A stretch of 20,083 nt of DNA from a virus. How positions within the stretch are numbered: the stretch's first letter is position 1; every line of letters begins with the position of its first letter. Position numbers and translations under genes: made by a program. The notes beneath the pieces are model-generated. The model made no database searches. It saw only the letters and a list, made by a program, of their open reading frames with translations, and was not told the origin of the DNA. The DNA is taken from positions 1 to 20,083 of the IMG/VR virus record IMGVR_UViG_3300035070_000294. One strand, given 5' to 3'. Shown piece after piece: positions 1 through 10,647 of the stretch.

Positions 1-609
1 ACACAGACTGACGTTGACTTTGTCATCGACCTGATCGCACAAGAAAACGTAGCAGCGGAGACTATCCAGCAGTACGACGTTACAGGTGATGGTGTTCTTG
101 ACATAAACGACCAAAACATGTTAGCGAGTGCACTACAGGGTGACCAAGATGTTACCTTTGCGGACACGTCCATGTTTAACCCGGCAACGGGGCTTTACCT
201 GCAACAAGAACAAGACACGCAGGCTACGATGGACGCAATCTTAGACATGAATACGCAGATTAACACGAATATCGACACTCGTGCCAAGGAGCGGAACATC
301 AACGATATGATGCAACAGATTATGGCATCGGGAGATATTGCAGGTCAGCAGGTCAGTGTTAAGACTCCGGACCCCATGAATATCGACTACCTGTATGATA
401 TTAGTGGAGAGAGTATCTTTGCTACACCGTCGCAGGCTCAGTTGTTTAGTAGTCCGTACGGCGGCACTCGGGTAGATCAGCCTAGACAGCAGCCTGCGAA
501 TACTCAGGTGGTTCCGTCGCTCCTGCCACGCCGTACAAGTGGGTTCGCTGAGGGTGGACAGGTTGAGGACGAAACTGATATGCTACTAAGAATACTTGGA
601 GATACGTGA
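1..609 (+). CDS. 5'-partial phage protein with EF-hand/dockerin-like calcium loop and C-terminal FAEGG motif
   Basis: The frame is open from base 1 with no start codon before 118, so the gene begins outside the window; the first internal ATG at 118 would cut through the most recognisable part. Bases 76-111 encode an EF-hand/dockerin-type loop (D-V-T-G-D-G-V-L-D-I-N-D: Asp at loop positions 1, 5, 9 and 12, Thr at 3, Gly at 6) flanked by helices. The first codons (TQTD followed by a helix) look like the end of another such repeat, so tandem repeats probably precede. The middle is Gln/Asn/Met-rich and probably helical, and the C-terminus carries GFAEGGQV followed by an acidic end. Such loops bind Ca2+ in EF-hand and dockerin families. 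The exact role is unknown; a virion or tail-associated role is inferred from the downstream genes. Its stop overlaps the next ATG (TGATG). Confidence 0.8.
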   Translation, partial: TQTDVDFVIDLIAQENVAAETIQQYDVTGDGVLDINDQNMLASALQGDQDVTFADTSMFNPATGLYLQQEQDTQATMDAILDMNTQINTNIDTRAKERNINDMMQQIMASGDIAGQQVSVKTPDPMNIDYLYDISGESIFATPSQAQLFSSPYGGTRVDQPRQQPANTQVVPSLLPRRTSGFAEGGQVEDETDMLLRILGDT

Positions 610-1286
610 TGGCGAGCTGGCTTGATGGACTGATTAAAAACTTCACCGGCGGTGACGGCGAGACTGACTGGGTTAAAGGCATCATCACGACCGGTGGTAG
701 CTACCTCTTGAACCAATCCGGTGCAGGCCAAGCGCAGATACCTCCAACAGGGTATCAAGGCGGTATTCCAGACTACGAAGTGCAGCGCCAGACCGTGCCG
801 GGTACCTATGATCCGAATCGACGTCCCGGAAGTGGTGGGCAGCGCTACTTTACACAAACGCAGTTCGCTCCTAAGAGCGCTACTCCTGCGGCCCCTATGT
901 CTGCGGAAGGTCTTGCGGCTCTGAACGCTGCTAACCCTGCACGACAAGAACGACGCCCCGGAGGCCCACGCGCCCCGTTACCGGACCAGACACCGGTGCA
1001 AATGGCTGCAGGTGGCCTTGCCAGCCTGAAAGAGGGCAAATACCTAGATGGTGCCAGTGATGGCATGGCGGACGAAGTACCCGCACGCATCGACGGTAAA
1101 CAAGAAGCTCGTCTGAGTGACGGCGAGTTTGTAATTCCAGCTGATGTTGTGAGTCACCTTGGTAATGGTAACTCTGATGCAGGTGCCAAAATGCTCAAGA
1201 GTATGATGGACCGCGTGCGCAAAGCACGTACTGGAAATGAGAAACAGGGTAAGCAAATTGACCCCAACAAATTCTTACCCGAGTGA
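609..1286 (+). CDS. Virion-associated phage protein with conserved C-terminal 'LSDGEFVIPADVVSHLG' module (225 aa)
   Basis: The start at ATG 609 is preferred over the in-frame GTG 606 because GGAG at 598-601 then lies 7 nt upstream; the ATG overlaps the previous stop. Residues 44-86 form a Gly/Pro/Tyr-rich stretch (GYQGGIPDY, RRPGSGGQRYF). A Pro/Ala linker follows, then MAAGGLASL at 132-140. Residues 151-209 are a dense conserved module (DGMADEVPARIDG, ARLSDGEFVIPADVVSHLG, then MMDRVRKARTG). I recognise this module as widespread in uncharacterised phage structural proteins, but no biochemical role is known to me. There is no signal peptide or convincing membrane helix. Context suggests a structural, tail or ejection component. 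The assignment to a phage virion-type family is fairly secure; the function is not. Confidence 0.82.
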   Translation: MASWLDGLIKNFTGGDGETDWVKGIITTGGSYLLNQSGAGQAQIPPTGYQGGIPDYEVQRQTVPGTYDPNRRPGSGGQRYFTQTQFAPKSATPAAPMSAEGLAALNAANPARQERRPGGPRAPLPDQTPVQMAAGGLASLKEGKYLDGASDGMADEVPARIDGKQEARLSDGEFVIPADVVSHLGNGNSDAGAKMLKSMMDRVRKARTGNEKQGKQIDPNKFLPE

Positions 1287-1294
1287 GGTGAACC

Positions 1295-2137
1295 ATGGCC
1301 GACCCAGTAGACGTTATCCCGACAACCGCTGACCCTATCGTAGGACAAGAAACTGGCAGAGAAAGTTCTCTTTCTTCTTGGGCTGGTCCATACGTCACTG
1401 AAATGCTTGGCAAAGGTCAGGCATTGGCCGGTGAGGGCTACAACGCCTATATGGGGCCGCTTACAGCAGGTGCTTCTGATCTACAGAGCGCAGCGTTTCA
1501 AGGCATCGGTGCTCTATCTCTACCGACCGCTGATATGGGTGTTTCTGGGTATCAGCCGGGTTCTTTCTCGGACCCCGGTATAGCACAACAATACATGAAC
1601 CCATACCTGCAGGCGTCGTTGAATCCGCAGTTGGAAGAAGCGCGTCGCCAAGCAGGTATTACCGCTGCACAAAACGCCAATAAGTTTGCCGGTGCCTACG
1701 GGGGGTCAGCGCAGGCGCTTTTTAATGCAGAATCGGGTCGTAACCTCGGCCAGAACCTCGCTGCAATCACGGGTCAGGGTTACGCAGACGCATACGATCG
1801 CGCTCAACAACAGTTCAACACCGAAACTGACCGTGGTATGACTGCGCAGGATAAGATCAACCTGTACGGCACCACAGGCCTGCAAGGGTTGGCAGAGATG
1901 GGCGGAATCCAACGGGGTATAGAGTCTGAAGGTATCACAGCAGACCGTATGCAGTTCGAGGAAGAACGTGACTTCCCTTATAAGCAGGTGCAGTACATGC
2001 AGTCCTTGCTGCAGGGGTTACCAATCGCAGCTCAATCTTACAGCTATGCACAACCTAGTGCGTTGTCTGAAGTGTTGTCAGGTGCCGGTGGGCTTTCCGA
2101 ACTGTACGACACTCTATTTGGTGGGGGCTCAGAATAA
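1295..2137 (+). CDS. Putative phage virion protein, Gln/Gly/Ala-rich (280 aa)
   Basis: ATG 1295 is preceded by GAGGTG at 1285-1290, 8 bases after the previous stop. The protein has a low-complexity N-terminus. A conserved central pattern follows: YMNPYLQASLNPQLEEARRQ, then FAGAYGGSAQALFNAES at about residues 131-147, and a Tyr/Gln-rich helical repeat (YADAYDRAQQQFN). I recognise the order 'MNPY ... hxxQ ... GAxGGSxxAL ... YxxAxxxAxxQF' from phage proteins encoded among tail or internal virion genes, usually annotated as hypothetical. The C-terminus is Ser/Gly/Leu-rich (LSGAGGLSELYDTLFGGG). Its stop overlaps the next start as TAATG. A structural or ejection role is inferred from family recollection and position; no enzymatic motif is visible. 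Confidence 0.82.
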   Translation: MADPVDVIPTTADPIVGQETGRESSLSSWAGPYVTEMLGKGQALAGEGYNAYMGPLTAGASDLQSAAFQGIGALSLPTADMGVSGYQPGSFSDPGIAQQYMNPYLQASLNPQLEEARRQAGITAAQNANKFAGAYGGSAQALFNAESGRNLGQNLAAITGQGYADAYDRAQQQFNTETDRGMTAQDKINLYGTTGLQGLAEMGGIQRGIESEGITADRMQFEEERDFPYKQVQYMQSLLQGLPIAAQSYSYAQPSALSEVLSGAGGLSELYDTLFGGGSE

Positions 2138-4011
2138 TGGCTTTAGAAAACGGCGGTCTCGACGCTCAAATCGAACAACGCATGGATGCCTACCGAGGCA
2201 ACCCACAGCAGCTGCAGCAGCGCTACGGACAGAACAAAGAACTTCTGGACCTTTTGGCCCTGCAGAAACTCACGTCTGAGAAGCAAGCCGCTTCCCGTGA
2301 TATGCAGATGAAGATGCAGCAGCAGCCGGGCACCATTGCACAGCAGCGCGAACAAGAAGCTCTAGAGCTAACGAAGCAGGAGATGGGTAGTACCCTCGGT
2401 GATCTTGCAGGTCGTACGAAGAGCACGCTGGATCAGAAGCAGATGAACCAGCAGAAAAATATGGGTAAAATGGCTCAAGCTGCGAGTCGACCTCCACAAG
2501 CGGGAATCGGTGCTCTTATGGGTGGCGCGACACGTCCACAACCTCGTCCCGCTGTCCCCCCTCAAGCGCAGGGTCTCGCCGCTGCACGCATGGCTCAAGG
2601 GCCAAGTAAGTTTGCCGGTGGCGGTATCGTGTCTTTTGCGCAGGGCCAAGGTGTCAGTGGACAATCAGGTCTCCAAGGCGAACAGACACTCGAGGAGAAG
2701 GTTGCACGCATCAATGCCCGCCCTGAATTGAGTGCCGGACAGAAGCAAGCCCTCATCAACCAGATCATAGCACAAGAACCTGAGCAGCCTTCTAGTGCGC
2801 AGCGTATGACCCCTATTGGTCGTGAAAGTAGCGCACGGATGCCGGGGCAGCGTGGTATGGTTCCCGTAGGCTCGGGCATGTCACAGCTTGATGTTATGGC
2901 GGAACTTAACCCGTCTATTGCTCCCACACGCCCCACTCCGGTGCCAGCCCCTACGACTGCGGCTCCTGCTCCTATGCCTGCTCCTGCTGCCCCGACACCA
3001 ACCCCCGGAGGTATCACGGACCTTCTTGACCAAAAAGGACAGGGCCCCGCCCCTGCAGTACCAACAGCAGGTGAAACTGCGGCCTCATTCCAAGTACCTC
3101 AAACGGCTGGTGCGGCGGATACAGGTATTCTAGCTGCACAAAACATGACATCTGCGGATGCAGCCCTACGCAAAGGCACGCAGTTCTCCGATGAATACAC
3201 TGGTCGTGCCGCTGCAAGTGAGTCGTACGAGGACATGAAGTCCCGACTGGCTGAATTTGATGAAGCAAACTACGGTCCGGGCGATGACTTAAACGCGTTC
3301 TTGATTGGTATGGGTGGCACAGGTTCTATCGGCTCTGCGATGAAGGGTGGCTATAACGCCATGAACCGCAGTAAGAACAACCGCCGTAACCGTATGATGG
3401 ATGAGTTCCAGCTGGAGAAAGATCGTATCGGTACCGACGCCGTGTTCTCCGCATCTGGTATTAAACTTGGTACGCAGCTTGCAGCAGATGCCGCGGCTAA
3501 CGAACGTAGTATCAGGTCTGCCGCCGCTGCATTGGGTGCAGCTAAAATTCGTGCGGCAACTGCCGATGCTGATCGCCTAGCAAACGTGTACAAAGCAGAG
3601 CTAAAGGCCGTGGACGATGCGGCAGCTCGTGCGGTGCAGCTGGCTACCAATGAACGTCTGGGTGACCAGACTCGCCTGACTGCTGCGATTGACGTGCAGA
3701 GTGATGTTGCGAGAACCCGTGCTTCCTTGCTCGAAGACCAACTCAGCAACTCTATGACTCTACAACGACTTGAGATGCAGAAATCGCAGGTGTCAGATGA
3801 TCCCGAGGCGATCGCAGCCATTAACCAGAACATAGCCGCAGAAACCGCACAGATTGCGTTGACTGTAGAAAGCGTGCTTAATACGCCTACACCATCCGGG
3901 CTAAATCTTCTCGAACTGGAAGCTACCGCTGCGGATACAATACGTAAACTGATGGGTGTTTCGGGGTTAACCGAAGATGATGTGACCGGTGTTACCGTTG
4001 ATGGAGAATAA
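2137..4011 (+). CDS. Putative internal or structural phage protein, Gln/Pro/Ala-rich with long helical C-terminus (624 aa)
   Basis: The start ATG at 2137 overlaps the preceding stop, with a G-run about 10 nt upstream. Residues 1-110 are Gln/Met/Lys-rich and predicted helical. FAGGGIVSFAQGQG lies at residues 159-172, the third occurrence of an A-x-G-G element in this operon. A Pro/Ala/Thr-rich linker occupies about 266-291 and is probably unstructured. From about residue 385 (NAFLIGMGGTGSIGSAMKGG) to 600 the chain is almost entirely Ala-rich helix with many Arg/Asp/Gln, consistent with coiled coil. No catalytic motif is visible. It lies 3 bases before the giant protein gene, so the two are probably co-translated. 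By context it resembles phage internal-core or ejection proteins, which are often long, helical and poorly conserved; this is inference. Confidence 0.8.
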   Translation: MALENGGLDAQIEQRMDAYRGNPQQLQQRYGQNKELLDLLALQKLTSEKQAASRDMQMKMQQQPGTIAQQREQEALELTKQEMGSTLGDLAGRTKSTLDQKQMNQQKNMGKMAQAASRPPQAGIGALMGGATRPQPRPAVPPQAQGLAAARMAQGPSKFAGGGIVSFAQGQGVSGQSGLQGEQTLEEKVARINARPELSAGQKQALINQIIAQEPEQPSSAQRMTPIGRESSARMPGQRGMVPVGSGMSQLDVMAELNPSIAPTRPTPVPAPTTAAPAPMPAPAAPTPTPGGITDLLDQKGQGPAPAVPTAGETAASFQVPQTAGAADTGILAAQNMTSADAALRKGTQFSDEYTGRAAASESYEDMKSRLAEFDEANYGPGDDLNAFLIGMGGTGSIGSAMKGGYNAMNRSKNNRRNRMMDEFQLEKDRIGTDAVFSASGIKLGTQLAADAAANERSIRSAAAALGAAKIRAATADADRLANVYKAELKAVDDAAARAVQLATNERLGDQTRLTAAIDVQSDVARTRASLLEDQLSNSMTLQRLEMQKSQVSDDPEAIAAINQNIAAETAQIALTVESVLNTPTPSGLNLLELEATAADTIRKLMGVSGLTEDDVTGVTVDGE

Positions 4012-4014
4012 GAC

Positions 4015-7000
4015 ATGGCGATACATACGCTCACCCTCAAAGACGGGTCTACGCTCCAAGTAGAAGCGCCACGGGGTACGCCTGTATCCGAACTTGTAGG
4101 TCTCGCTAACCAGCAGTCTCGCACCGCAGATCAACAAGCCTTGCAGAACCGGCAGCAAGAGCGCCAAGCGTTTTTTGATAGTCAACGGCCTGAGTATGCA
4201 GCCATTCCAGAACCTGAAACAGGGTTTTTTGGCGACATCACGTCGGGGTTTGGCACTGGATTCGTAGAAACAGGTGAGATGGCGGCACTGGGTGCGGCTA
4301 CACTGCTCGACGAAGAAGCCGAGCTTGCTGCACGAGGTAAGATTCAATCTGTTGCAGATGCCATTAAGCCTAGCGTGCGTGAAGGTGATAAGGACGACAT
4401 TGCATTTAAGATCGGCCAGACGTTTGGTTCTATTGCTGGTTTTGCTGTACCCATTGCTGGCGCTGCAGCTGCCGCCCCTGCCGCTATACCCGCTGCCGCC
4501 GTTGGTACTGGGATCGGTGCTCTCTTAGGTGTAGGTGCTGCAGCTGGTGAAGCGAGTGAACGTGCTCGTGCCGCAGGGACCACCGAAGAACAACGTAACT
4601 TAGCTATCCGTCAAGCCGCCCCTGTTGGCCTGTTAGAAGTAGCGCCCCTTGGGCGTTTCATGCGTTCTGTCGACATTCCCGTCATTGGTCAATTTATTAA
4701 AGACCTTGGCCCTGAGACCGTAGAAACAATCGGTCAGCGTATCCAGAACGCCGCTATCACTGGTGGTGGTGAGGCCGCACAGGAAGTCACCGCGGAGATC
4801 GTGCAGAACCTTGCGGAGCGTGGGTACAACCCAGAACGTGCTATCACAGAAGGCACTGGAGAGTCCGCGCTGTATGGCGGCGGTGCCGGTGCTACCATCC
4901 AATTCCTCGTGGACGCCTTTACAAACAGCCGTAAGGCAGGTCCGCAGGGTGAAACTCCCCTACAGATCGAGGGTGAAACTCCGCTACAGATCACCGATCA
5001 GCGAGAGCCTGCGCAAGTAGAACCTCCCGAGGGTATCGCAGGGTTGTTGGAAGCACCACGTGCCGCCCTGCCTGCACCCGCTAAACAGTTACCCGCCCCG
5101 CGGACTGAGGTGACACCCGAAGGTCAAGCGATAACTCCTGAACAGCGCAGTGCGCAGTTGGAACAAGAGCGCCTAGAAGAGGCCGAACTCAACCGTATGC
5201 TCGCTGAAGACGAACCCATCGTCGCGGATATGCCGCCGAGAGATGTTCGAGAAGGCCAAGCGAGGTTGCGTGCGGAAGAAGCACGTGCAGCTGAGACTCA
5301 ACAAGTAGCTGAAGTTACTCCTGCTCCGGAAGATGATGGAGACATTGCTGCAGAGCTGGCTCGTCTGGACGCTCGAGAAGCTGCTACGAGAATAAAACGT
5401 GCGCAAGACCGCCCAGTAGAAGAAGCAGAAGCTCGTAGAGCCGGTATTCTTTCTGACGTCTTAGCGAGCACTACAACAGCCAGTCAGGTAAACACTGAGC
5501 GAGCTTTCTCTAAAGCACTGGCAGATCAGGGTATCGCTCGTGTCGAACCCACTAAAGACGAACGTGCAGCCATCGCACGCAAAACTTACGAGGTAGCAGC
5601 GCAGCGACCTGAAGCGCCTGTAGAGGCAGCTGTAGAAGCGCCCTCAGAAGCACCTGTACCAGTTAAAGACCCTGCACAAGAAGCATTGGAAGCTCGTGTG
5701 GCTCCCAGAGACCGCCCCGCGGTGCAGCCTTCATTTCCGGGTATGGGTCGTAAGGCTGACCTCGGTGTGGCACCTGCACAGGAAAGCGTTGCGGAAACTC
5801 CTGCGGCTCCTGTAGCTGTAGATGAGACCTTCTTGAACGAACTGGGAGTGCCTAAAGCTGCTCCTATCCGCAAACGTGTTTTGGGTAAAGATTTTAACGC
5901 CCCAGAAGTAAGACAACAGTTCGCTACTTTGGCGGGCAACAAAAACACTTCGGGTACGTTGAAAGCAAACATCAACCGTGCGTTAGGGGACGTATCTGAA
6001 GCTCAAGGAGACTTGCCGTTATTCCCACGTCGGGGAGCTAAACCTGCGGCTGGTATTACTCCGCTCAACAAACCTGCCTTGTCTAATGTAGACTTAGGCC
6101 AACTCTTGGAGGTGCCACGTGTCGCGAGTCAAGAAGCTAAACCGGCAGCAAGTGGAAGAAGCGTTCCGTCTCCTGTCGGAGATGTGGGGGCAAGACCCGC
6201 ACGACCAGTTCCTAGCCCTGCCCCTGCCGTCGAAGCTACCGGAGAACCTACTGCACCTAGAGGTAGCAGATTGGGAAGCCCTGTCGTGGAGCCTCGAGTG
6301 CCTGATGGAGCAAGCAGAGCGGAGCGTGATGCACTAGAACGCAACGCCATTGTGGGACGGCCAGACACTCCGGAAGCCAAACGTGGTCCTATCCCCGCCG
6401 CTGTTAAGTCGAGCGAACGGAAAGATGCCGAAAAGAAAGTCGTGGACAGGGAAACCGCGGCCAAGAAAGTTCGTGCGGAACTCAAGACACGTTGGGAGGC
6501 TCAGGCCACAGACGTGGCTAAACGTGAGTATGCCGACACTGAAAACCAAGTTAAAGGTGATCCGTTCACCACGGCGGAAAACCGCAAAATCCTCAAGCTG
6601 CTGGAGACACCCGTCAAGAGCCGCGAGAAAGATGCCCTTGATGCAGTCGTAACTTACCTTGGACTTTACCCTAACCCTGCAGAGGGTCTCTACCTTGCGA
6701 TGCAGGACGTTGCCATGGGAACTCCGCAGAGTCGAGGCGATCCGCTACTTAAAGGCACCGGTGGTAAAGCTGCGGGTAAGGCGGTTAAGTGGGCTCAAGA
6801 AAACCTCGACAGCAACGGTAAAGAGTGGGTTCGTAAGTCTGTTGTGGCTATCCAGAAAGACCTCATGGGTGTGGCGGATGCCGACCTGACCGTAGCGCAG
6901 TTGAAAGAACAAGGCATCACCGATGCCGTTCAGATGCAGCGTGAGAAGGAAGCACTGGAAGCAGAGCGTGAAGAAGCCGAAGCAATGCTTGAGGCAGAAA

Positions 7001-10000
7001 CCCAAGACAATGAGTCCTTCGACATCGAACGGCAGCTGGGGTTCACTCGCATTAAGATCGACAAGCTGCTCAAGGCTAACGCCGTTGTAGGTCTGGACCT
7101 CCCCTTGCACCCGTCTGTTGGCGCGTCAATCAAGGCTGGCGAACTGAGCGCTGCTCTCTCTGCTCTGGCGGGTACATCCCCTAGTGCTCAGGTACAGAAC
7201 ATCGCTGCTAAGTTGGCGGACGTAGTGGGCGACACAAAACTTGTTACCAAGAAAGACCTGAAGGCAGCGGACGGTCGCCCGGTGGCGGGTATGTTTGATC
7301 CTGAGACAAACACAATAACGCTTGATGAAGGAACTGGTATCAACGCGCACACGTTGATCCACGAAATGACCCACGCTGCGGCAAGCGCCACGCTATCGAA
7401 TAAGGCACACCCACTTACAAAGCAGATCACCAAACTGTTTGAGAACGTCAAAGAGTATCTCGACACTGCTTACGGTGCTCAGAACGTCGACGAGTTCTTC
7501 TCTGAGGCAATGAGTAACCCAGACTTCCGTGCCATGCTCGCCACGATCAACGTCAAGGGTGAGCCTATCAGCGCATTGCGTCGGTTCCTAAATTCTACGG
7601 GTAATTTCGTACGTCGCCTCATGGGTCGTCCGACCACACCACTGGACGCTATGGAGACTGTAGATACGTTTGTAGACGGCCTACTTGCCCCTGCACCGCA
7701 GTATCGTAACTCTGGTCAACTCCTAATGTCTTCTACTGCAGACGGTGCCAAGAAGGTTCTAAATACGTTAGTAAGTCGCACGCAGAAGAAGTTTGGTACG
7801 CCTGAAGCACGTAAGGACTTCCGTCGCCAGTTTGGTGACGACTCAGTAGAGTTCCTGCAAAGTGGGGTCGCAGAGAACGCAAAGAAACTTCTGTTGAAAC
7901 TCACAGGTTCTCAAGCAATGGCAGATATAGCCAAGGCTGCGGGTCTGGGTAATATCGGGTATAAACTAGACCGCATTATCAACGAGCAGCGTGGCGGTAT
8001 CCGTATAGCCAACGAACAGGTAAAACGTGAGATCGACAAGGTTGTTTCTTGGGTCGACAAAGTAAGTGATGCCAAGAAAGAGACGCTGGACCGCTTGATC
8101 TACAACGACAAGTACGGTGCCACCATCTATCAGGTAGACCCAACACTCACTGCAGCAGAGGCCAAGAAGCGGTATGCTAAGGACTCCGATAAGATGGCTG
8201 TCTGGAATGAGCAACGCAAAGACTGGAACGCTCTTGGTGCTGATGGGCAGCGTACGTACAAGATCATGCGGGATAACTACCGTAACCAGTACGAGAAAAT
8301 GCGGGCTGTCATCTTTGGTGAGATCGACGAGCTAATGGCAGACAACCCTGAAGCGGCTACCAAACTGAAGAACGAAGTGTATGGCAAGCTGTTCGATAAG
8401 GGCACTCTGGACGTTTATTTCCCATTGATCCGTGAAGGTCAGTACAAGTTGACCTATGCTGCCAAGAACCCTGCGTCGGACCGCGAAGCCTATGTCGTAG
8501 AGATGTTCACTACAAAACGTGAGCGAGACCGTGCGGCGGCGGAAGTACGCGCAGATAAAGAGTTTACTGGAGTTGAAACCTTCGACGGTGAAATGACCAA
8601 CAGTGACTTCAAGAACGCTCCTCCTGCTTCGTTTGTAGCACAGACACTCCGCACCTTGAGCGCCAACGGTGTAGATGGAGATGTGCAGACGCAGATCATG
8701 CGATTGTTTGTTAATGCCCTGCCAGAAACATCCTTTGCAAAGTCCCTGCAGAAGCGTAAGGGCACCCCCGGCTACCTGACGGACTCTGTCTATGCCATGA
8801 AATCTAAAGCGTACGACCTTGCGGGACAGACTGAGAAGCTCAAGTACGCCGCTGTCCTACGATCTTTGGAACGAGAAATAGTAGAACAGGTAACTCCTGA
8901 AGGTGGCGCAAAAGCGAAATCTCGTCTGGGTAAAACCGCACAGGCAACTCGTGCGTCGTTTGAAGATGTAAAAGACGAACTGCTGAACCGTTCCAAGTTT
9001 GCTCGTGAGGGTGCAGAGCGCAAGGATTTAGAAGCATACGGTCGTAGGCTCAACCAGACTGCCTTCATCTTTACCATCGGTTTCAACGTATCGTCTGCTC
9101 TGGTAAACCTCTCGCAGGTACCGTTGTTCGTGATGCCGTTCTTGGGTGGTAAATACGGGTACAAAGAAACCGGTATCGCAGTCAAAGAGGCTGGTAGCAT
9201 CGTCGCTTCCTCCAAGAACTCCATCCTTGAGAACTACAACATCCGTGATGATGGCGTGATGAGCGTCAAGAAAGATTTGGATGTGCCTGCGGAACGCCGC
9301 AAAGAACTTGAAGACCTTGCTCCCCTCGTAGCACTCGCTGCAAAACGTGGTCAGTTGGGTCAGGGCTACCTTGCGGAGGCCTTGGGTCTCGAGGAGTCAG
9401 GTCGAGTATCTCGCGGTGGTAAGGTCGGCGCTATCATGGATAACATATCCGTGCTGTCAGCTTTCGCATTTAACCACGGTGAGCAATTCAACCGGCAGGT
9501 AACTCTGGTAACAGCGTACAAGCTGGCACTGCAGAAGTTGGCCAAGGACAGTCCTAACATGACGCGGACTGAACGTATGGATAAAGCCGCAGAAATGGCG
9601 ATCTACGAAGCACAAGAGACAAACGGCGGCTCGTTCTTGGAGACTGCGCCCCCTATCGCACGTGAAGGTCTCGGTCGTGTGGCCTTTATGTATAAGAGCT
9701 ACGGCCTGCAGATGTATTACAGTATGCTCAAAGCTGCTAAGACTGCGTTCGACTCCGACAAGGGTAAGTTGTTTGGTCCAGAGGGTTCACCGGAACGTAA
9801 GGCTGCTTGGAAACAACTTATCGGCCTACACGGTACAGCGTTGTTCTTTGCGGGTATCCAAGGTGTACCTCTTTACGGCGCGGTGCAGTTGGTAGCAGAC
9901 TTGTTCTTCTTGGACGACGAAGAGGACGACTTCGACACCATCGTGCGCAAGTATGTAGGTGAGGGATGGTACAAAGGCGCTATCACGAACTTCTCAGGTA

Positions 10001-10647
10001 TCGACGTCGCTGGTCGTACTGCGCTTACAGGGCTGTTGATCCAAGAAAACCGATACAACAACGACCCGTCACTCGAGGAAAACCTTGGGCACTACTTGGG
10101 TGGTCCCGCTCTCAGCGTGGCTAAACGTCTGGGTCGTGGTGTGAGTGACCTTGCAAGTGGTGAGACTCAACGAGGCATTGAGAACATGATGCCTGTCGCT
10201 ATTGCCAACGCATACAAGGGTACGTTCGGTCGGTACGCAGATCAGGGCGGTGCGTTTACTCGTCGGGGTGACCCGATATATGACGATATGACCGCGGGTG
10301 AAATGGCTTCTCAGGTGCTGGGTTTCCCACCCACAGAGTACACGTTCCGCCAAGAGCAGAACATGATTAGTAAACGTATCGACATATCAGTTGGTAAAAA
10401 GCGTTCGGGCCTGCACAAGAAGTATTATGTGGCCATGCGCTTGGGTGACTTCGATGCAGCAGACTCGGTATTCGATGAGATCATGAAGTTCAACGAACGG
10501 CATCCCGAGGCGGCAATCACACCTAATTCGATCGAGAGGTCAATGAACCAACACGCTAAAACATCCACTGAGATGTATAACGGTGTTTCTCTCAGCCCGT
10601 TGTATCGTAGAACCCTCGAGCAGCTGCGCTCCGAGTACAGCCAATAA
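4015..10647 (+). CDS. Giant polyvalent/ejection-type phage protein with zincin domain and variant PLxRFG motif (2,210 aa)
   Basis: GGAG at 4003-4006 lies 8 nt before ATG 4015. Residues 1-32 form a short beta-rich module (TLTLKDGSTLQVEAP...) like those opening many large phage virion proteins. Residues 132-181 are a Gly/Ala hydrophobic segment of glycine-zipper type. Residues about 310-830 are Ala/Glu/Pro/Arg-rich and probably disordered. A zincin follows: H1116-E-M-T-H1120, with E1160 or E1164 in DEFFSEAM as the likely third zinc ligand, so metalloprotease activity is plausible. At 1470-1475 PLIREG sits where polyvalent phage proteins have PLxRFG. Hydrophobic helices occur near 1685-1712 and 1936-1973. 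Large ejected proteins of podoviruses (for example T7 gp16) are comparable in position and size; polyvalent proteins (Aravind group) combine such domains. The role as a co-injected protein is inferred. Its TAA stop overlaps the facing terminator. Confidence 0.87.
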   Translation: MAIHTLTLKDGSTLQVEAPRGTPVSELVGLANQQSRTADQQALQNRQQERQAFFDSQRPEYAAIPEPETGFFGDITSGFGTGFVETGEMAALGAATLLDEEAELAARGKIQSVADAIKPSVREGDKDDIAFKIGQTFGSIAGFAVPIAGAAAAAPAAIPAAAVGTGIGALLGVGAAAGEASERARAAGTTEEQRNLAIRQAAPVGLLEVAPLGRFMRSVDIPVIGQFIKDLGPETVETIGQRIQNAAITGGGEAAQEVTAEIVQNLAERGYNPERAITEGTGESALYGGGAGATIQFLVDAFTNSRKAGPQGETPLQIEGETPLQITDQREPAQVEPPEGIAGLLEAPRAALPAPAKQLPAPRTEVTPEGQAITPEQRSAQLEQERLEEAELNRMLAEDEPIVADMPPRDVREGQARLRAEEARAAETQQVAEVTPAPEDDGDIAAELARLDAREAATRIKRAQDRPVEEAEARRAGILSDVLASTTTASQVNTERAFSKALADQGIARVEPTKDERAAIARKTYEVAAQRPEAPVEAAVEAPSEAPVPVKDPAQEALEARVAPRDRPAVQPSFPGMGRKADLGVAPAQESVAETPAAPVAVDETFLNELGVPKAAPIRKRVLGKDFNAPEVRQQFATLAGNKNTSGTLKANINRALGDVSEAQGDLPLFPRRGAKPAAGITPLNKPALSNVDLGQLLEVPRVASQEAKPAASGRSVPSPVGDVGARPARPVPSPAPAVEATGEPTAPRGSRLGSPVVEPRVPDGASRAERDALERNAIVGRPDTPEAKRGPIPAAVKSSERKDAEKKVVDRETAAKKVRAELKTRWEAQATDVAKREYADTENQVKGDPFTTAENRKILKLLETPVKSREKDALDAVVTYLGLYPNPAEGLYLAMQDVAMGTPQSRGDPLLKGTGGKAAGKAVKWAQENLDSNGKEWVRKSVVAIQKDLMGVADADLTVAQLKEQGITDAVQMQREKEALEAEREEAEAMLEAETQDNESFDIERQLGFTRIKIDKLLKANAVVGLDLPLHPSVGASIKAGELSAALSALAGTSPSAQVQNIAAKLADVVGDTKLVTKKDLKAADGRPVAGMFDPETNTITLDEGTGINAHTLIHEMTHAAASATLSNKAHPLTKQITKLFENVKEYLDTAYGAQNVDEFFSEAMSNPDFRAMLATINVKGEPISALRRFLNSTGNFVRRLMGRPTTPLDAMETVDTFVDGLLAPAPQYRNSGQLLMSSTADGAKKVLNTLVSRTQKKFGTPEARKDFRRQFGDDSVEFLQSGVAENAKKLLLKLTGSQAMADIAKAAGLGNIGYKLDRIINEQRGGIRIANEQVKREIDKVVSWVDKVSDAKKETLDRLIYNDKYGATIYQVDPTLTAAEAKKRYAKDSDKMAVWNEQRKDWNALGADGQRTYKIMRDNYRNQYEKMRAVIFGEIDELMADNPEAATKLKNEVYGKLFDKGTLDVYFPLIREGQYKLTYAAKNPASDREAYVVEMFTTKRERDRAAAEVRADKEFTGVETFDGEMTNSDFKNAPPASFVAQTLRTLSANGVDGDVQTQIMRLFVNALPETSFAKSLQKRKGTPGYLTDSVYAMKSKAYDLAGQTEKLKYAAVLRSLEREIVEQVTPEGGAKAKSRLGKTAQATRASFEDVKDELLNRSKFAREGAERKDLEAYGRRLNQTAFIFTIGFNVSSALVNLSQVPLFVMPFLGGKYGYKETGIAVKEAGSIVASSKNSILENYNIRDDGVMSVKKDLDVPAERRKELEDLAPLVALAAKRGQLGQGYLAEALGLEESGRVSRGGKVGAIMDNISVLSAFAFNHGEQFNRQVTLVTAYKLALQKLAKDSPNMTRTERMDKAAEMAIYEAQETNGGSFLETAPPIAREGLGRVAFMYKSYGLQMYYSMLKAAKTAFDSDKGKLFGPEGSPERKAAWKQLIGLHGTALFFAGIQGVPLYGAVQLVADLFFLDDEEDDFDTIVRKYVGEGWYKGAITNFSGIDVAGRTALTGLLIQENRYNNDPSLEENLGHYLGGPALSVAKRLGRGVSDLASGETQRGIENMMPVAIANAYKGTFGRYADQGGAFTRRGDPIYDDMTAGEMASQVLGFPPTEYTFRQEQNMISKRIDISVGKKRSGLHKKYYVAMRLGDFDAADSVFDEIMKFNERHPEAAITPNSIERSMNQHAKTSTEMYNGVSLSPLYRRTLEQLRSEYSQ
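4948..4995 (+). repeat. Tandem 24-bp duplication in the giant gene linker
   Basis: Two adjacent 24-bp units (4948-4971 and 4972-4995) differ by one base over their first 21 bases and encode GETPLQIE followed by GETPLQIT. The duplication is in frame and lies in the disordered linker after the hydrophobic N-terminal segment, so it changes linker length only. Confidence 0.8.

Follow-up and report, generated by a model that had tools for sequence, protein, structure and literature searches.

The window, by which we mean the whole 20,083-nucleotide stretch of viral DNA analyzed here, carries at positions 4015–10647 of its plus strand a single open frame without stops, encoding a giant protein of 2,210 amino acids that is preceded on the same strand by three smaller genes. 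The features of this protein and of the upstream genes, all on the plus strand, are as follows:

606–1286, plus strand: 226-aa gene of the same block, a probable virion protein
1295–2137, plus strand: 280-aa gene, gp14/gp52-like by position only
2137–4011, plus strand: 624-aa gene directly upstream of the giant gene, gp15/gp51-like by position only
4015–10647, plus strand: giant polyvalent and putative ejection protein, 2,210 aa
4015–4194, plus strand: exchangeable N-terminal cap, residues 1–60, of the "GPDG..VEGPxGAT" type
4195–4944, plus strand: conserved N-terminal module, residues 61–310 (GEASERARAAGAT, EAAQE..QN..E.GYNPE)
4441–4503, plus strand: hydrophobic Gly/Ala segment, residues 143–163, inside the N-terminal module
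4945–6354, plus strand: hypervariable low-complexity linker, residues 311–780, about 470 aa, delimited by column occupancy and composition
6565–7044, plus strand: conserved middle domain, residues 851–1010 (160 aa), delimited by alignment
7120–7695, plus strand: zincin-like metallopeptidase domain, residues 1036–1227, by fold match to N4 gp50 C1
7228–7236, plus strand: insertion slot, residues 1072–1074, holding ART-PolyVal (PF18760) in the relatives L005, L073, L077 and L078 and absent from the window protein
7360–7374, plus strand: HEMTH, residues 1116–1120; H1112 also lies in the zincin
7489–7506, plus strand: DEFFSE, residues 1159–1164, the start of DEFFSEAM (1159–1166)
8032–8376, plus strand: LPD39 (PF18858), residues 1340–1454
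8413–10602, plus strand: helical C-terminal domain NF032893 ("tail-700 / PLxRFG"), residues 1467–2196
8422–8439, plus strand: PLIREG, residues 1470–1475

The HEMTH motif, the downstream DEFFSEAM glutamate and PLIREG all lie where an earlier note on this DNA had placed them, and the polyvalent membership that it claimed is borne out by profile searches. Judged by these profiles, the product belongs to the already described class of large polyvalent proteins, because it has both a strong match to NF032893 ("PLxRFG domain", tail-700) and a match to LPD39. The former, obtained in the NCBIfam scan, covers residues 1467–2196 (positions 2–678 of the 681 of the model) with 313 bits (E = 3.7e-93), far above the curated cut-off of 100 bits; the letters PLxRFG are the label of this family and not its curated criterion, and the window protein, which does not have them, is filed as an altered-motif subfamily. 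The latter reaches 35.4 bits (E = 1.1e-8, Pfam), with a gathering score of 27. PHROGs matches over the C-terminal region are to DarB-like and other giant phage proteins, and when the whole protein was compared with isolated phages by tblastn, the C-terminal region alone was matched, at about 22–26% identity. Pfam and NCBIfam scans detected neither a methylase or helicase domain nor an RNA polymerase domain, PDB sequence searches with both halves of the protein gave nothing significant, and no relative was found in a scan of bacterial genomes. In IMG/VR, the zincin region has at least 245 relatives and the C-terminal domain at least 554. For nine close relatives the identity is 61–100%, and a zincin with HExxH is present in every relative that has enough sequence upstream of the C-terminal domain. 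As in the polyvalent proteins of phages and plasmids described by Iyer et al. 2017 (PMC5512222), a zincin is combined with LPD39, the gene lies among virion genes (as seen both across the loci and in the 62-kb relative described below), and ART-PolyVal is found in sisters. However, whereas polyvalent proteins combine several disparate activities, the window protein itself has one assigned enzyme domain, the zincin, next to LPD39, to which its sister L005 adds an ADP-ribosyltransferase (ART).

The eight NF032893 proteins from isolated phages offer a closer comparison. Those of the podoviruses H66, Parlo and vB_KpnP_ZX1 share with the window protein the full-length match of 1467–2196 and the late position of the gene, and five of the eight have, like the window protein, a plain HExxH, in their case about 400–600 residues upstream of the motif. 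Seven of the eight are 3,000–4,700 residues long, compared to 2,210 here, and the window protein lacks a methylase-helicase. All eight keep PLxRFG, whereas the window subfamily has PLxR-E/K/D-G: among 79 aligned relatives, the fifth position is E in 49, K in 12, D in 6, T in 4, R in 3, S in 3, Q in 2 and F in none. The earlier suggestion that the Phe to Glu change marks a subfamily is thus half right, in that the loss of Phe does mark a large aquatic subfamily, but the Glu is no specific adaptation, because the position simply varies within it.

A separate model of residues 1440–2210 (pLDDT 77.7) has polyvalent phage proteins as its best BFVD matches, with E down to 1e-44. Remoter matches, at 12% identity, are to proteins of the roseophages CRP-5 (E = 5e-8) and CRP-4 (E = 2e-7) that are named internal virion protein D; this is an automatic UniProt name, and GenBank lists CRP-5 gp39 as hypothetical. 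Another of the remoter matches (E = 7e-10) is to the giant protein that Celeribacter phage P12053L encodes within its virion block, while the sequence profile of the domain leaves only a trace in P12053L gp42. Against solved structures there were unspecific helical matches only, none of them significant (best Z 6.2), with N4 C2 and the solved gp16 absent among the structural matches listed. Sequence similarity of this domain to N4 C2 was rejected on a profile–profile E of 0.69, although motifs looked alike by eye. Foldseek searches of the PDB with models of 1011–2210 and 1440–2210 returned nothing at E = 0.001 or better.

The N-terminal part is more loosely built. Its caps are swapped among members, which have either a "GPDG-GPEGAT" type, a helical type or, in L040, a lysozyme-like type; the last of these, an N-terminal extension (L040:4347–5100), shows the T4-lysozyme-like triad spacing E-x8-D-x5-T and matches phrog_37474, with no match in Pfam or the PDB. 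The module of residues 61–310 also occurs in the giant protein of Ruegeria phage 45A6; its equation with the Schitoviridae/N4-type NTD is not supported by profile comparison (E = 0.016, probability 3%; Presley, E = 0.045). The membrane-like Gly/Ala segment of the earlier note is indeed found within this module, at 143–163, but with a best 21-residue Kyte–Doolittle mean of 1.74 it can be called only borderline membrane-like; across the family, this maximum has a median of 1.60 and is above 1.6 in 27 of 56 members. Similarly, the disordered linker of roughly 500 residues corresponds to a low-complexity stretch of about 470 residues (11.5% Pro and 18% Ala, with order-promoting residues making up just 20%) that is the least conserved part of the protein (38–68% column occupancy), but its place is after the N-terminal module and before the zincin, and not between the zincin and PLIREG, which are separated by 354 residues that are mostly helical in the AlphaFold2 model. 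The middle domain, 851–1010, matches no known family.

Turning to the zincin, the HExxH motif is not a chance occurrence, because it would be expected only 0.005 times from the composition of the protein (12 His in 2,210 residues). Furthermore, H1112, HExxH, E1160 and E1164 are invariant in all 81 aligned relatives. An AlphaFold2 model of residues 1011–2210, built with 48 sequences (pLDDT 74.9), consists of helices and three strands, and predicts an HExxH helix (1111–1127), a downstream glutamate helix (1158–1167) and a three-strand sheet, which together are the hallmarks of a zincin-like metallopeptidase. HEMTH is thus placed inside a zincin fold, as the earlier note had proposed, and the top structural match in the PDB is the C1 domain of the N4 virion RNA polymerase (vRNAP), namely residues 2124–2366 of gp50 (9pnt, Z 8.4, rmsd 3.9, 171 residues aligned; 9pnr, Z 8.0), compared to published boundaries of 2124–2375 (PMC12633501). 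The next match, and the nearest outside phages, is lethal factor, with the fold of a secreted effector protease (Z about 4.7), which Iyer et al. 2017 had likewise found as a relative of the N4 domain (PMC5512222).

While a Z of 8.4 is by itself middling, an independent profile search agrees with the relation to N4 C1. With E scaled to 100,000 sequences (best decoy 110), the zincin profile matched the crAss-like cr55_1 (4e-12), five of six vRNAPs (PG11, 2e-11; MIF8, 4e-9; XC38, 2e-7; Presley, 4e-7; P184, 5e-6), the giant protein that the T7-like Limnohabitans phage YIMV22061 encodes at the gp16 position (3e-5) and, within the same range of E, Parlo. The sixth vRNAP, that of N4 itself, gave no sequence match, so that the fold points to N4 C1 and the sequence profile to the relatives of N4. 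On these profile matches, the window zincin is homologous to the vRNAP zincins. The presence of a zincin in the N4 vRNAP was already recorded by Iyer et al. 2017 (PMC5512222); in the open-access literature we found no paper linking a zincin of the window type to C1 of the recently solved N4 polymerase. As a separate observation, a stretch of N4 gp50 at about 2451–2615, at the start of the "C2" region, aligns with the window zincin profile (E = 4e-5) with its HExxH lost, and the vRNAP of the Vibrio phage PG11 keeps a second HExxH, at residue 2424, at the matching position, so the start of N4 C2 may be a dead second zincin.

The region just before the zincin is a site of insertion. In L005, the closest sister of the window (tree support 0.99), which shares 93% identity with the window protein over its C-terminal half, an insertion of about 160 residues at 1073/1074 matches ART-PolyVal (PF18760, E = 2.3e-18). 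A divergent ART occupies the same slot in two other lineages, represented by L073 and by L078, as well as in L077, which is near L078. Parsimony on the tree requires three changes for the presence or absence of the ART, and at least two gains are likely, because the backbones of L005 and L078 are only 50% identical and because the window, L002 and L003, which surround L005, have no ART. The sequence of L066, a neighbor of L073 in the tree, is incomplete at the slot.

The gene neighborhood is strongly conserved. Of the 37 loci that include at least 2.5 kb of upstream sequence, some of which are near duplicates, 36 contain a homologue of the 280-aa gene and 35 one of the 624-aa gene, and these keep their order and immediately precede the giant gene. 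In order and size ladder, this trio corresponds to N4 gp52-gp51-gp50 (150, 645 and 3,500 aa), and T7 gp14-15-16 have the same layout (196, 747 and 1,318 aa; PMC8954989), although the 624-aa and 280-aa genes match gp15/gp51 and gp14/gp52 in order and size only. In a 62-kb relative (L198–L201), the trio stands at the end of a late block with genes for terminase (TerL), portal, capsid, S74 tail fiber and endolysin, and this block converges with an opposite-strand block of 938-, 242- and 511-aa genes, which we liken by size and order to the primase, SSB and SNF2-type helicase genes of the window; N4-type phages are likewise convergent after the trio. Searches for a PF12236 portal and a PF00940 T7-type RNA polymerase gave no match in eight relatives, but the controls gave none either, so they are uninformative. 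Several further genes in these surroundings deserve mention in their own right. The 226-aa gene of the window (606–1286) carries a motif, SDGMADEVPARIDGKQEARLSDGEFVIPADVVSHLGNGNSDAGAK, common to Synechococcus/Planktothrix and Caulobacter phages (one of the proteins being annotated as a tape measure protein). The late block of the 62-kb relative includes a beta-ketoacyl synthase-like gene (L198:3786–4898; PF02801, E = 4e-15, and PF00109), possibly an auxiliary gene of fatty-acid synthesis, and a 1,916-aa late protein is encoded just before the block of the trio (L198:5369–11119); L005 has a 2,168-aa ORF upstream of the trio.

Virion evidence comes from a family member in phage H66, as H66_0060 matches NF032893 with 796 bits and its record states that its presence in the virion was "verified by mass spectrometry". 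Together with the gene trio, this makes the virion-borne and injected protein envisaged by the earlier note likely. JC1 gp69, which has been found in virions (PMC9144972), was dropped as evidence, as it carries LPD38 and has no NF032893 match.

Taking these data together, we compared the protein with the giant proteins of N4 and T7. N4 gp50 (Schitoviridae) likewise has a hydrophobic N-terminal part, a flexible linker, the zincin C1 and a large helical C-terminal domain, and is the last of a small-medium-giant trio convergent to replication genes. It differs in that an RNA polymerase of about 1,100 aa lies between the NTD and the zincin, where the window protein has the linker (311–780) and a 160-aa domain. 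T7 gp16 (internal virion protein D) shares the gene order and size ladder, and is the largest ejection protein of its trio; it has a transglycosylase domain, which the window protein lacks, and the likeness to gp16, as the last and largest of a gp14-gp15-gp16-like trio, is one of position and size. In YIMV22061, the 1,576-aa protein at the gp16 position (L196:7210–11940), which follows the gp11, gp12 and 782-aa genes, carries the zincin clade of the window, and its first residues resemble, by sequence, a soluble lytic transglycosylase such as T7 gp16 has.

On balance, we favor the interpretation that the giant protein serves a podovirus-like marine phage as its largest ejection (internal virion) protein, of the gp16/vRNAP type, with a self-processing zincin. 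The individual parts of this interpretation differ in strength: packaging and ejection are very probable in light of homology, the arrangement of the genes and the H66 data, and an active metalloprotease is likely given the strict invariance of its residues, while self-cleavage as the main task of the zincin is our preference only, at somewhat less than even chances. The protein would be a late product that is packaged in the head and driven into the cell behind the proteins of the two upstream genes, as are T7 gp16 and N4 vRNAP. Its hydrophobic N-terminal module would insert into the inner membrane and the long flexible linker would let the chain pass the tail. The zincin, together with the helical C-terminal domain of 750 residues, would make up a chassis entering the cytoplasm, with the slot just before the zincin, which takes an ART in sister phages, available for a swappable payload. 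After delivery, the zincin may cut its own chain, so that the C-terminal (or payload) part and the membrane part come apart. We prefer this substrate because self-cleavage explains both how one zincin clade can serve many unrelated payloads and the long variable linker upstream. Our main reason for caution is that N4 vRNAP is packaged unprocessed with its zincin HExxH intact (PMC5512222), and thus an intact zincin need not mean self-cleavage. Cutting of the cell wall is the least likely of the three targets proposed earlier (own chain, cell wall or host factor), because the nearest zincins of this clade sit in polymerase and DarB-like cargo proteins, and because visible peptidoglycan functions belong to separate domains (the SLT-like N-terminus of YIMV22061 and the lysozyme-like triad of L040).

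It is also conceivable, if unlikely, that the zincin is a host-directed effector that cuts a host protein, for example, a defense or transcription factor, and that the ART of the sister phage is a second effector on the same delivery chain. This is one of the options listed by Iyer et al. 2017 (PMC5512222), and it would account for the invariant active site, for the effector protease fold of lethal factor as the nearest non-phage structure, and for the repeated gain of an ART beside the zincin. However, the domain is kept across very different hosts (Schitoviridae, crAss-like, T7-like and DarB-like phages), which fits a common delivery step better. We would give an equally modest chance to the zincin being a structural element of packaging or ejection, with proteolysis not its role in infection, as may hold in N4, where the region with the MPTase is needed for encapsidation of a protein that stays unprocessed (PMC5512222) and where C1 clasps the RNA polymerase domain (PMC12633501). 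Strict invariance of the metal site in 81 sequences is, however, difficult to account for unless the site binds metal or is catalytic, and the degenerate second zincin-like stretch in N4 C2 suggests that these residues are lost when they are not needed. Finally, it is very improbable that the protein is simply an antirestriction protein of the DarB-like kind, guarding incoming DNA, since, despite the C-terminal domain shared with proteins annotated as DarB-like, the antirestriction name stems from the N-terminal parts of other proteins, and the window protein has only the linker and a 160-aa domain over residues 311–1010, with no methylase/helicase domain by Pfam or NCBIfam.

Returning to the ejection protein with a self-processing zincin, a broader generalization can be put forward only tentatively, and we consider it rather doubtful: that a zincin and a large helical C-terminal domain form a general phage delivery chassis, partly common to the giant proteins of N4 (vRNAP), crAss-like, DarB-like and T7-like phages, onto which each lineage loads its own payload (an RNA polymerase, a methylase-helicase, an ADP-ribosyltransferase or, as in the window, none) to be freed by the zincin inside the cell. 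The polyvalent class, the PLxRFG family and the idea of injected zincins were already known (PMC5512222); new to these are an aquatic subfamily whose motif is altered, the three-gene cassette conserved within it, an ART slot next to the zincin and a direct connection between this zincin and N4 C1. A large aquatic phage family keeps the N4-type HExxH domain, with its active site invariant, in a protein free of polymerase, which uncouples the zincin from transcription and suggests a role in packaging, ejection or processing, and the ART slot shows how such giant proteins acquire new host-modifying activities.
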